Shown one piece after another: positions 26,081-30,450 of a DNA stretch of 57,625 bases. Location of the stretch: NCBI GenBank assembly GCA_002172675.1, contig NETF01000167.1:1-57625 (forward strand). Reading direction: 5' to 3'. This stretch comes from an unicellular cyanobacterium SU3 (GTDB taxonomy: Bacteria; Cyanobacteriota; Cyanobacteriia; Cyanobacteriales; Microcystaceae). Each line of letters opens with the position of its first letter. The first letter of the stretch is position 1. Under the pieces are notes generated by a model that saw only the letters and a list, made by a program, of their open reading frames with translations, was not told the DNA's origin and did not search any database. The position numbers and the translations under genes were made by a program.

Positions 26081-26100
26081 ACTGATCACTGATCACTGAC
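26081..26100. repeat. tandem ACTGATC heptamers
   Basis: Two full units and a partial third (ACTGATCACTGATCACTGAC) lie between ruvA and the small conserved gene, overlapping the ruvA stop region. A related ACTGATCACTGAGGACTGAT stretch precedes the DciA-like gene at about 48749. These are low-complexity spacer repeats. Confidence 0.7.
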
Positions 26101-26725
26101 TTAACCAAGCGATCGCTTCTTTAATCCATTCTTCTGTATTGGTATTTTGTAACATTAAATTGTCTTGACTTAAGGTAGAAATGGCTTTATTGATCTCTTC
26201 ATTAGTATAACCTAAAGCTAATAAGGTCATCTCAATATCTTCTAAAATGTCTAAGGATGGCATAGCAGAAGAAGAAGTAACAGTTACACCTACTAATTTC
26301 CGCCATTGTGATAGTTTGGTTCTCAACTCTAAGGCAATTCTTTCAGCAGTTTTTTTACCAATACCTGGGGTTTGGGATAAAATTCTAATGTTTCCTGTAA
26401 CAATAGCTTGGACTAATTCTTCTAATCCTAACGTATCAATTAAAGCAATGGCTGATTGTGCGCCAATTCCACTAACACTTATTAATTGACGGAATAATTC
26501 TCGTTCTGCTGTTGTTGAAAATCCATATAAAATTTGCTGATCTTCTTTGACTTGTACATGGGTAAAAACTTGAATGTTTTCTAATTTTTCTTGAGAGATT
26601 TCTCTGGCGAGTTTTGAAGGGATTTGCAATTCATAGCCAATGTCATTGACTTCTAACACCAACATTATCCGATTATTGGTATTTTTATTAACTTCAATGG
26701 GAGTGCCTTTTAAATAACTAATCAC
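26093..26725 (-). CDS. ruvA: Holliday junction branch-migration protein RuvA
   Basis: Binds four-way DNA junctions as a tetramer and loads the RuvB helicase. The 210-residue length is normal. The N-terminal OB fold begins MISYLKGTPIEV. Two helix-hairpin-helix motifs follow (FRQLISVSGIGAQSAIALID and LSQTPGIGKKTAERIALEL). The C-terminal third domain, which contacts RuvB, ends EEWIKEAIAWLSQ. It is 11 bases downstream of the sucrose-phosphate phosphatase gene on the same strand. Confidence 0.96.
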   Translation of the reverse strand: MISYLKGTPIEVNKNTNNRIMLVLEVNDIGYELQIPSKLAREISQEKLENIQVFTHVQVKEDQQILYGFSTTAERELFRQLISVSGIGAQSAIALIDTLGLEELVQAIVTGNIRILSQTPGIGKKTAERIALELRTKLSQWRKLVGVTVTSSSAMPSLDILEDIEMTLLALGYTNEEINKAISTLSQDNLMLQNTNTEEWIKEAIAWLSQ

Positions 26726-26736
26726 AGTCGTTTAAT

Positions 26737-27489
26737 TTAAGTTGTAATAAATCCAAAATGATTCAACCCTTCTAAAATTCCTTTAGCACAATCTTGTTTT
26801 GCTAAATAACGAAATGGGGTTTGATGTCGATCATACCATTGTAAAAGTTCTGATTTAGCATTGCCGACAATGATGCCTCTTTCTTCTCCTTGAAAGAGGG
26901 TAATATCGTTCCCAGAATCACCACATACAACAGTTTTATTAGCTGCTATTTGCCATTTTTCTCGTAAGTATTGCAGGGCTGATCCTTTGCCTCCATTTTT
27001 AGGTAAAATATCTAAGGCATAACTGGCACTATAGATGACTTGAGTTTCTAATTTTTCTCTGGCTAAATCGGCTTTTAATCGGGGTACAATTTCTTGGGCT
27101 ATTGTGTCAGATAAACAATAACTTACTTTAAAAGGAGTTTGTTCAGATGACGGTTGTAAAACTAAATCAGCAAAATGACTAGCAACAGAAAATACCGCTT
27201 CTCGATCCCAATTTTCAGAGACATTATTAGCCCATTGTAAGTCAAAATGATCTTTGATAGGATTAAAGTATATTTCGGTTCCCACAGAGGTAATTAGAGC
27301 ATCTGGAGATAAAAGAGATTTTTCTTGGTTAAGTTGCTTAAAAAGTTCTAGCGATCGCCCCGTAGAATAGACAATTTTTATATCTTCTTGCTGTCGTTTT
27401 TTTTCTAATACGTCATTAAGAGTAATTAATGACGTATCGTCACCGATAAGAGTATGATCAAGATCAGTGACTAATAAAAAATGTGTCAT
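26737..27489 (-). CDS. spp: sucrose-phosphate phosphatase
   Basis: Hydrolyses sucrose-6-phosphate to sucrose, the last step of synthesis of this compatible solute. The 250-residue length matches the Synechocystis enzyme. HAD motif I is DLDHT with D9 and D11. Motif II is YSTGRS, K168 lies in NGGKGSAL, and motif IV is GDSGND at 190-195. It belongs to the C2-cap SPP family. The separate sucrose-phosphate synthase is not nearby. It leads the minus-strand group ending at purF. ATG at 27489. Confidence 0.93.
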   Translation of the reverse strand: MTHFLLVTDLDHTLIGDDTSLITLNDVLEKKRQQEDIKIVYSTGRSLELFKQLNQEKSLLSPDALITSVGTEIYFNPIKDHFDLQWANNVSENWDREAVFSVASHFADLVLQPSSEQTPFKVSYCLSDTIAQEIVPRLKADLAREKLETQVIYSASYALDILPKNGGKGSALQYLREKWQIAANKTVVCGDSGNDITLFQGEERGIIVGNAKSELLQWYDRHQTPFRYLAKQDCAKGILEGLNHFGFITT

Positions 27490-27799: not shown

Positions 27800-28276
27800 A
27801 TGCAAGATTTTTTCACTCAACTCTTTTCCCATGATCAATATATTCCTCATGGACACTGTTATTTATGGCAACTGTCTTTGCTATGGTTACATATTATTTC
27901 TGATGGGTTCATTGCCATTGCTTATTTTTCTATTCCTCTTATTCTATTATATTTTATTCGTCAACGAAAAGATATGCCGTTTCAAGGCATTGTTATTCTA
28001 TTTGGGGCGTTTATTCTATCCTGTGGAACCACTCATATTTTTTCAGTTATCACCCTTTAATATCCCAGTGTATTGGCTATCAGGGGCAATTAAAAGCTTT
28101 ACTGCATTAGTTTCTCTTTATACAGCTATTAGTTTAGTTCCCATTGTTCCGAAAGCTTTAGCGTTACGTTCACCCTATGAATTAGAAGTTTTAAATCATG
28201 AATTAGAATCAAAAATAAAAGAAAAAGAAACAGCAGAAATAACCATTCGTCAACTTAATGAACAATTAGAAAGTAG
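27800..28276 (+). pseudogene. ethylene-receptor-like sensor, N-terminal part, frameshifted
   Basis: The first 86 codons encode the ethylene-binding domain known from plant ETR1 and Synechocystis SynEtr1: three membrane helices with ISDGFIAIAYFSIPLIL and LFGAFILSCGTTHIF. D35, C75 and H79 are the positions equivalent to ETR1 Asp25, Cys65 and His69, the last two being copper ligands. The frame stops at 28058-28060, but the +1 frame continues at once with NIPVYWLSGAIKSFTALVSLYTA and a coiled coil ending EQLESR, so one frameshift near 28057 broke the gene. At 28277 coding is cut by an IS66-type element, and the tail resumes at 29441 as a GGDEF remnant. All metal-site residues are preserved, so decay looks recent. 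Confidence 0.82.
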
Positions 28277-28290
28277 GTAAGGATTCAGGT
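28277..28290 (+). repeat. IS66-type element, left terminal inverted repeat
   Basis: GTAAGGATTCAGGT, exact inverse complement of 29427-29440. It begins right after the receptor coding sequence and creates the TAA that ends the open frame at 28280. Confidence 0.88.
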
Positions 28291-29384
28291 CTAGAAATTA
28301 GGAATTAGCGAAGGAACTAAAGAATCAGGATGACCAGCTTTTGCCATCAATGACTTCTCGAAGAAATCAATAACTGAACGTGCTTGACGACGACAAGTTT
28401 GCACCACAGTCAACAAGTTAGCTGTTTGTAAAAATCGTTCCATGCTTCTTGAACCCCCACTAACTTTTCGTTTCGTGATGGCTAATCTTAAGGATCTTTC
28501 GGCCAGATTATTATCAGGGGAGATTTCTGGATGATCTAGAAAATACCACCATTGCTCTGCCTTTTGTTGCAGGTTCCGCAAAAGTTTTCCTGCTTCATAA
28601 CCAGCTTTTGGTTTCCATTTTTCTCTGGCTATCTTTATCTTATCTTTGAATTGGTTTACCCACACTTGATAACTATGGCTATCCTTATCGTTTTGCCAAA
28701 TACGATAATGACGGAAAGCTTCATCAATTAAATTCAGGAAAGTTTCACCGATGATTTTATTATATTGACCTGGAGTTTTGGTTAATTTTTTGAAATGACG
28801 ACGTAAATGAGCCAAACACTTCTGTTGCGCTCTAACAGAGTAGCCATTGTAAACACCCAAATCATCACTGCTTAAAACGCCATCATATTCTGAGCCTAGT
28901 TGTGCTTGTAGTTCAGCCCGTCCTCTAGTATCAGCAGCCCGAAATAGGCAGAAAAGCTGATTGGTAAAGACCCAGAGCCATTCTTTAACGCCTTTTACTG
29001 GCCAAGGAGTTTCATCAACATGAATTGGGGGTTGTTCTACTTTAACCCACTTGGATAATTGTTCAACTGATGGATTAATGGCTGTTTCTACTCGTTGATT
29101 AGTAGCCACAATGGTTCCTACACCAATCTCAACTTTTCCTAACTCCCACAATAATTCTTGTTGCTTGGCGTAGGGTAGATGTCCATAATTTCCTAGCCAT
29201 CCCAGAAAAGCTTGCAACTTCACCCCTAAATCTTGTCCTGGGATGATCTTGGGCGACCAAGACGCTTTTGTCACTTGACCACAATAAGTTTTTGTTGAGT
29301 CAAGATAATATGCACCAACTCAGATTTTGACAGTTGGTTTAATTTTTCTGGCTTTAGTTCTACTCCTGGTTCACTTTGACTCAT
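28291..29384 (-). pseudogene. IS66-family transposase with internal deletion and frameshift
   Basis: The 37-residue N-terminus is readable from the ATG at 29384 (MSQSEPGVELKP ... LTQQKLIVVK) to a TGA at 29271-29273. A different frame then carries the catalytic part, readable from upstream of the GTG at 29274: a partial YCGQ zinc-site remnant, HVDETPWPVKG and SSDDLGVYNGY with DDE acidic residues, then ERSLRLAITKRKVSGGSRS near the end, a typical IS66 DDE domain. About 100 residues of the HTH/zinc-finger region are missing at the junction. It cannot make a full transposase, so movement would need help in trans. Confidence 0.88.
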
Positions 29385-29426
29385 ACCGTTACTTTAGCGT
29401 AGTCAGCCTGTTTGTCAATATCTGCT

Positions 29427-29440
29427 ACCTGAATCCTTAC
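29427..29440 (-). repeat. IS66-type element, right terminal inverted repeat
   Basis: ACCTGAATCCTTAC, exact inverse complement of 28277-28290. Coding sequence of the broken receptor resumes in frame at 29441. Confidence 0.88.
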
Positions 29441-29623
29441 CAATTACACATTCAATACGGTGATCAATCCCTAGGTTTAGTTACAGTTTCTTTAGGGGTT
29501 TCTGCATTTCCGAATCATGGAGACAATCCCAGAGAATTATTACAAAATGCTGACTTGGCTTTGTATAAAGCCAAAGAAGAAGGACGCGATCGCGTCATTT
29601 CAGCTGATTTACTCCCACAATAG
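29441..29623 (+). pseudogene. C-terminal remnant of a GGDEF (diguanylate cyclase) domain
   Basis: Sixty codons from QLHIQYGDQSLG through VSLGVSAFPNHGDNPRELLQNADLALYKAKEEGRDRVI are the last third of a GGDEF domain. The GGDEF signature itself and the first two-thirds are gone. It follows the right IS end with no start of its own. With the N-terminal part at 27800-28276 it shows the parent gene encoded an ethylene-binding membrane domain, a coiled coil and a diguanylate cyclase. The middle was lost with or after IS insertion. tatC starts 35 bases later. Confidence 0.85.
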
Positions 29624-29658
29624 TCGCAGAAACTAAACATTTTTTCTTACAATAGTTA

Positions 29659-30450
29659 ATGACTAACTCCATCCCAACAGATGTTATGACCCAAACCGAT
29701 AGTCAACCCCGTACCGAAGCTAAAAACAACCCTTATCTCGACGAAATCCCCGATGAACTAGAGATGTCATTGTTTGATCATCTTGAAGAACTGCGAATGC
29801 GTATTTTTTATGCTTTAATTGCCGTCGTTATTGCCATGATAGGCTGTTTTCTTGTAGTGAAACCCCTAGTCAGATGGCTAGAAATTCCGGCACAAGGGGT
29901 TGAATTTTTACAGTTGGCCCCTGGGGAGTTCTTTTTTGTTTCTATTAAGGTGGCAGGTTATAGCGGTATATTAGTGGCGAGTCCCTTTATTCTGTATCAG
30001 GTTATTCAGTTTGTTTTACCCGGTTTAACCCGTCGGGAACGGCGTTTATTAGGCCCTGTGGTGTTGGGATCAGGTGTTTTATTTTTTGCAGGTATTGGCT
30101 TTTCTTATTGGGCTTTAATTCCGGCTGCTTTAAACTTTTTTATTAGTTACGGGGCCGATGTTGTTGAACAATCTTGGTCGATTGATCGTTATTTTGAGTT
30201 TGTTTTATTGTTAATGTTTAGTACGGGTATTGCGTTTCAAATTCCTGTGATTCAATTAATTTTAGGACAGTTGGGCATTGTGTCATCAAACCAAATGTTA
30301 AAAGGATGGCGTGTTATTATTTTAGGTGCAGTTATTTTAGGGGCAGTGTTAACCCCTTCGACTGATCCGTTGACTCAATCTTTATTAGCTTCTGCTGTGT
30401 TAGGGTTATATTTTGGCGGTATTGGTTTAGTTAAATTAAGTGGTAAATAA
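29659..30450 (+). CDS. tatC: Sec-independent protein translocase TatC
   Basis: Core receptor of the twin-arginine pathway, exporting folded proteins across thylakoid and plasma membranes. The 263 residues include a polar N-terminus, the conserved [15 protein letters not shown] before the first helix, and six membrane helices. [38 protein letters not shown] and [19 protein letters not shown] are typical. tatA/tatB are not adjacent. With the receptor gene broken upstream, tatC needs a promoter in the 35-base gap or within the remnant. ATG at 29659; another ATG at 29686 is possible. Confidence 0.95.

Follow-up and report, generated by a model that had tools for sequence, protein, structure and literature searches.

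Remnant of a cyanobacterial gene joining an ethylene-binding domain to a GGDEF domain, and its uninterrupted relatives

The window that we analyzed, a stretch of 57,625 nucleotides from the unicellular cyanobacterium SU3 (contig NETF01000167.1, C167 in our numbering, of a 5.6 Mb genome in 208 contigs), contains between 27800 and 29623 what is very probably a recently inactivated copy of a gene passed on by vertical descent. The parent gene encoded a membrane-bound protein with an ETR1-type ethylene-binding domain (EBD) followed by PAS, GAF, and GGDEF domains, and we hold this explanation with high confidence as a whole, including the mechanism proposed below. The window gene is dead; of more interest are its uninterrupted homologues, the way in which loss is distributed among relatives, and a second, two-gene route that is still in the genome.

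Pieces of the remnant gene and its uninterrupted homologue

Three pieces of the gene are retained, all on the forward strand. The first (27800..28057) consists of 86 codons followed by a stop at 28058-28060, and it encodes the start of the EBD with transmembrane helices 1 and 2 (Pfam ETR1_N, PF25487, 2e-25). The second (28062..28276) lies in another frame and supplies the end of the EBD, with helix 3, and the start of a coiled coil; its translation (28062-28277) covers the remaining part of the same ETR1_N model at 1.5e-8. The third (29441..29623) is the end of a GGDEF domain, 60 codons long and closed by the stop codon, and its translation (29444-29620) matched positions 122-161 of the 161 in the GGDEF profile at 5.1e-9. 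The second and third pieces also align with the intact homologue described below. These ETR1_N and GGDEF matches are not due to chance. The GGEEF catalytic motif of the window copy falls within the missing part, and so the GGDEF remnant is predicted to be no cyclase, its active-site motif being gone.

D35, C75, and H79 were all found in the 5' piece. By eye, all seven AtETR1 ethylene-binding positions are kept in this piece, with the numbering shifted by +10, and likewise in the intact homologue; we take Y32, I35, P36, and I62 of AtETR1 to be four of the seven. D25, C65, and H69 are among the residues that AtETR1 needs for ethylene binding, according to the part of PMC11819568 available to us. 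The original prediction, made from the DNA alone, had read the 5' piece as an ETR1-type EBD with D35, C75, and H79 and the 3' piece as the end of a GGDEF domain, and the profile matches agree with it on both.

An EBD match was present in 36 of the 59 genomes searched (the window's own genome included). The best one after the window itself (92% over 86 aa) lay in a 676-aa open frame on contig C185 of genome G006. This contig is that of Cyanothece sp. BG0011 (NZ_PRLH01000001.1; 100% over a 190-residue query), and at the same place it carries a single uninterrupted gene of 667 codons, the nearest relative found. The surroundings are as in the window. On one side are a sucrose-6F-phosphate phosphohydrolase-type gene, which is the divergent neighbor (26737..27489 of the window, reverse strand; Pfam S6PP 6.9e-87), and the conserved neighbor ruvA (26093..26725, reverse strand); on the other side, as elsewhere in the genus, is tatC (29659..30450, forward strand). 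We assume the names ruvA and tatC from resemblance. In a genome of another genus of the same family (G021), ruvA is likewise the divergent neighbor of the homologue.

Pfam assigned four domains to the BG0011 protein (P0001), all above the cut-off: ETR1_N at residues 27-122 (4.1e-38), PAS_3 at 217-306, GAF at 365-489, and GGDEF at 501-658. A coiled coil lies between the EBD and the PAS domain, GGEEF is found at 579, and RQSD, an instance of RxxD, at 570. HisKA and HATPase were absent from the Pfam matches of this protein. An AlphaFold2 model of the intact homologue (mean pLDDT 67.9, pTM 0.36, both low) tentatively shows three helices at the N terminus, then a long coiled coil, then mixed domains, and this order is what the model supports. 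The GAF domain contains, at residues 411-450, a conserved Cys/His-rich motif (CWxLRRGxxH...LYCxH...LCxPM) that is perhaps a metal or redox site.

The claim that a parent protein had joined an EBD and a GGDEF domain thus stands, because the 667-codon frame contains both pieces in the same neighborhood; the same architecture occurs uninterrupted elsewhere, so the two pieces are not always separate genes. We weighed the view that they were never joined and that two genes, one with an EBD and the other with a GGDEF domain, flank an insertion element by chance. GGDEF genes are common, and most of the best 80 named EBD loci encode histidine kinases (66 by phmmer), as this view would have it. It is refuted by the single-frame homologues, by the shared neighbors, and by the DNA alignment, in which the pieces fall on opposite ends of a single gene, and its probability is close to nil.

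Lesions, age of decay, and the IS66-family element

Our preferred reading, a single gene now broken, is specified further by the alignment of the window DNA with that of BG0011. The two ends of the window gene map onto the two ends of the BG0011 gene, with one difference in length, of a single base, in the left coding stretch. At the element site the window lacks 1345 bp of the BG0011 gene, which correspond to about residues 160-607 of 667. The lost middle comprises most of the coiled coil, the PAS and GAF domains, and most of the GGDEF domain. Three lesions had been predicted: a frameshift near 28057, an insertion at 28277, and loss of the middle of the coding region. In the assembly sequence, the one-base difference falls close to the first of these places, and the absent 1345 bp account for the third. 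An element is indeed present at the second, with the small corrections that the left junction follows 28276 and that the retained 3' part begins at 29441.

The one-base difference might stem from faulty base calling, but correcting it would not rescue the gene, because the element and the deletion remain. Were the break at 28057 unreal in this way, or read through by +1 frameshifting at CTT-TAA, the result would be a short stand-alone ethylene- or copper-binding membrane protein with a complete EBD, ending at the element. The CTT-T stop form is used in prfB frameshifting and is present at the break site; the second frame extends to the edge of the element and a stop, and low dN/dS is kept in both EBD pieces. 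However, the genes of G006, G002, and G008 read across the place corresponding to 28057 without a stop, the output domains of such a protein would all be gone, and recent decay explains the low dN/dS equally well. We consider a surviving short protein improbable.

The dN/dS values against BG0011 were 0.15, 0.25, and 0.14 for the three pieces in order, and those for the whole gene were 0.13 (G006-G008) and 0.21 (G006-G002). Because the retained pieces resemble the whole gene between relatives in this respect, the window copy is most probably a recent pseudogene. As a separate observation, the right-hand 240 bp (29441-29680) are ∼82-83% identical to the BG0011 DNA, compared to 91% for the left part and ∼94% for most of tatC, and the dS of the 3' piece is 0.69 versus 0.25-0.29 for the left pieces and tatC. 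Simple decay offers no explanation for this extra divergence; an older recombination is possible.

The insertion (28277..29440) is a shortened IS66-family element of 1164 bp with 14-bp terminal inverted repeats, bounded by the ends GTAAGGATTCAGGT and ACCTGAATCCTTAC, and copies or ends of it occur elsewhere in the same genome. On the reverse strand it carries a truncated transposase frame of 327 aa (28291..29274) that lacks the N-terminal part and matches DDE_Tnp_IS66 (PF03050) at 2.7e-37. The copy on contig C12 has both element ends, and other matches in the genome have one of them. From their coordinates, the C12 and C37 copies are ∼0.4 kb longer than the window copy, and that on C37 has an uninterrupted frame of 452 aa; the window element is therefore internally deleted and defective, as had been claimed for it. 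An assembly chimera at the element was considered and is unlikely, since the other copies are at most 84% identical to it over the main 1-kb part (91-92% in short end pieces), so that reads should not collapse.

An 8-bp target duplication is characteristic of the IS66 family. None was seen at the window element, where the 8-base flanks GAAAGTAG and CAATTACA differ, and the C12 copy likewise has none. The assignment to the family rests on the PF03050 transposase domain and the terminal inverted repeats, which the window copy shares with IS66-family elements, whereas it departs from them in its internal shortening and in having no visible target duplication. Absence of the duplication is expected if the DNA adjoining the element was deleted, and it would fit either a deletion next to the element after it had inserted or a recombination of two copies.

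Apparent repeated loss in the genus and distribution beyond it

We compared the locus across the genus using the window's own genome together with G001-G008 (n = 9). An uninterrupted gene between tatC and ruvA was found in two of the nine, BG0011 and G002, the second of which thus provides another uninterrupted copy in the genus. The G008 copy has one internal TAG, a single stop that a draft-genome error could mimic. G007 retains no more than 99 bp from the 3' end of the gene and G003 no more than 49 bp from the 5' end, and no coding region was found by blastn at E 0.001 in G001, G004, and G005, the latter two of which keep part of the upstream gap. In G016, from another genus of the same family, the two ends of the gene lie in two frames and the middle is missing. 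Neighboring species thus seem to have lost the gene by several distinct routes, and this repeated loss, by differing lesions at a single place, suggests a value for the gene that varies with habitat. No EBD match whatever was detected in five of the nine genus members (G001, G003, G004, G005, and G007), an absence that is firm only for G007 (99% complete), as the other four genomes are 79-93% complete. The neighboring sucrose-phosphatase-type gene also varies among these genomes: it is whole in the window's own genome, BG0011, and G003, and in the other six of the nine it is a fragment (G001, G004, G005, and G008) or was not found (G002 and G007).

The same architecture occurs uninterrupted elsewhere in the family and the order. 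At least 14 of 388 genomes of the order yielded a match along nearly the whole intact protein (query start ≤11 and end ≥658; three candidates per genome were scored, which makes the counts lower bounds), one of them being G008 with its internal TAG. A draw of 388 genomes of the class, at a cut of 1e-130, gave at least four full-length matches, all from the window's own order and all among the order-level matches. In a named collection we counted 258 stretches that code for relatives of the EBD query, and our analysis covers the best 80 of them. By phmmer, the EBD loci among these 80 divide into 66 with histidine kinases, 6 with GGDEF, and 8 with neither. Four of these eight are kinases by Pfam, one (L112) is a stop-broken Crocosphaera copy with GGDEF behind the stop, and L146, L151, and L166 were assigned to neither class.

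Among the best 80 of the 258, the order EBD-PAS-GGDEF was found in Cyanothece BG0011, Crocosphaera MO_202.B2, Aphanothece hegewaldii CCALA 016, and the uncultured PMM_0086, and a GAF domain was called in the first three. Two Xenococcaceae proteins are variants of this plan: that of MO_188.B19 (L154) is EBD-GAF-GGDEF and that of MO_188.B29 (L190) is EBD-GAF-PAS-PAS-GGDEF-EAL. A single origin of all EBD-GGDEF fusions was considered and rejected: an EBD tree built from 90 rows requires 6 label changes, compared to a mean of ∼15 after shuffling, although with an alignment of 130 columns the well supported branches force one change only.

Ethylene-binding positions were compared in 13 of the 14 homologues, G079 being left out because our script did not locate the motif. 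D25 and H69 are kept in 13/13, C65, Y32, I35, and I62 in 12/13 each, and P36 in 11/13. Departures from ETR1 are confined to G002, G053, and G250, each at two of the seven positions; G053 is without the Cys, and G002 differs at I35 and I62. The output end is similarly constant, with GGEE[F/L/I] in 12/12 readable homologues and RxxD in 11/12. From these substitutions, not every member of the family need bind ethylene. A broader form of this doubt is that the EBD of the parent family is no longer an ethylene sensor and serves as a membrane anchor or as a sensor of copper or another ligand, with the PAS and GAF domains carrying the signal. Such a change of role would accord with the three departing homologues and with the GAF domain having a conserved Cys/His-rich motif of its own. 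On the other hand, D, C, and H are kept together in 11 of the 12 uninterrupted homologue rows and in the window piece, and the same domain binds ethylene in SynEtr1, in Geitlerinema cells, and in AzoEtr1, as described in the parts of PMC6682694 and PMC11819568 available to us. We judge loss of ethylene sensing across the family unlikely, though a good deal less so than survival of a short protein in the window species.

Proposed links between ethylene and c-di-GMP, in one protein or in two

If the parent family senses ethylene, as we prefer to think, its action can be sketched by analogy with ETR1. In the intact relatives, the three transmembrane helices would bind ethylene through a copper ion held on Cys75 and His79. 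Binding would reshape the coiled coil, PAS, and GAF regions of a dimer, and this in turn would alter how the two GGDEF domains meet, setting the rate of c-di-GMP synthesis, which the RxxD motif, as a putative product-inhibition site, may limit. Ethylene would perhaps lower rather than raise the output, by a loose analogy with Azospirillum. In the window species the protein is predicted to have been lost, with the frame broken and the IS66-family element standing in place of residues 160-607.

SynEtr1/UirS (Slr1212) of Synechocystis sp. PCC 6803 has an EBD followed by cyanobacteriochrome and histidine kinase regions acting via response regulators (PMC6682694, PMC5812497; consulted in part). It and the parent protein alike are cyanobacterial membrane sensors with an N-terminal ETR1-type EBD, but the parent protein has its PAS, GAF, and GGDEF output in one chain and no histidine kinase. 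The contrast with SynEtr1 that had been drawn at the outset therefore holds for the parent protein, but the window's own genome also keeps an EBD histidine kinase (see below). In Azospirillum brasilense, ethylene lowers cellular c-di-GMP; AzoEtr1 resembles the parent protein in having an EBD followed by PAS, whereas its output is a histidine kinase, with an unknown route to c-di-GMP, in place of GGDEF (PMC11819568, in the part available). GeiEtr2 of Geitlerinema (Baaleninema) PCC 7105 has a neighboring gene with a diguanylate cyclase domain (PMC6682694, in part), and in the record of this strain (L119) the EBD kinase frame overlaps at its end with a REC-GGDEF-EAL frame. GeiEtr2 is thus a cyanobacterial EBD protein too, but its kinase and cyclase are separate genes. 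As for PleD/WspR-type cyclases, the GGDEF domain of the intact homologue matches PleD (1w25) at 7.3e-35 and has both GGEEF and RxxD, whereas the input domains are others and the BG0011-type protein begins in the membrane.

In the sections of the surveyed literature available to us, bacterial ethylene responses run through histidine kinases. An EBD-GGDEF fusion was not found among the matches listed in our literature search, which included the accessible portions of PMC11819568, PMC6682694, PMC5812497, PMC8846402, and PMC12288463; earlier mention is possible, and we claim no priority. By a word search of the text available, the word "ethylene" is absent from a 2022 census of stimuli of c-di-GMP enzymes (PMC8846402). 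On balance we lean slightly toward a class of cyanobacterial ethylene receptors that sense and respond within a single protein, with c-di-GMP synthesis instead of a phosphorelay as the output (EBD-PAS-GAF-GGDEF, with EBD-GAF-GGDEF and EBD-...-GGDEF-EAL variants). This class would have been discarded repeatedly in the window genus, and in three of its nine genomes, among them that of the window, an EBD kinase and a REC-GGDEF-EAL protein would keep a link from ethylene to c-di-GMP. An ethylene sensor and a c-di-GMP enzyme in one chain would be the simplest possible route, and Cyanothece sp. BG0011 and Aphanothece hegewaldii CCALA 016 are named strains with this arrangement.

Contig C51 of the window's own genome (L043:83-4767) encodes an EBD hybrid kinase (P0008) in which Pfam recognized ETR1_N, GAF, HisKA, HATPase_c, and a receiver. 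Thus EBD proteins have not disappeared entirely from the window species. The kinase gene is followed immediately, on the same strand, by a REC-GGDEF-EAL gene, the two open frames being 77 bp apart; because the EBD kinase directly precedes this gene, a link from ethylene to c-di-GMP by phosphorelay may persist in the window species. An orthologous pair is present in G008 (L192), with 76% and 79% identity for kinase and REC-GGDEF-EAL protein, and BG0011 (L191) has a different EBD kinase (ETR1_N, several PAS, and HisKA_2) followed by a REC-PAS-GGDEF-EAL gene. The three kinase-type EBD loci that we examined among genus members (own genome, G008, and BG0011) thus all pair a kinase with a GGDEF-EAL neighbor. 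Further weak EBD matches in the genus were one at a contig end in BG0011 and one of 29% identity in G002.

Beyond the genus, only a minority of loci show this pairing. Neighbors were counted from 76 loci, in 4 of which the locus ends within 200 bp, several neighbors being cut. Of the 73 named loci outside the GGDEF class, 5 (L119, L124, L127, L153, and L186) have a REC-GGDEF or REC-GGDEF-EAL frame immediately downstream, and 21 others have a downstream receiver frame that lacks a GGDEF match.
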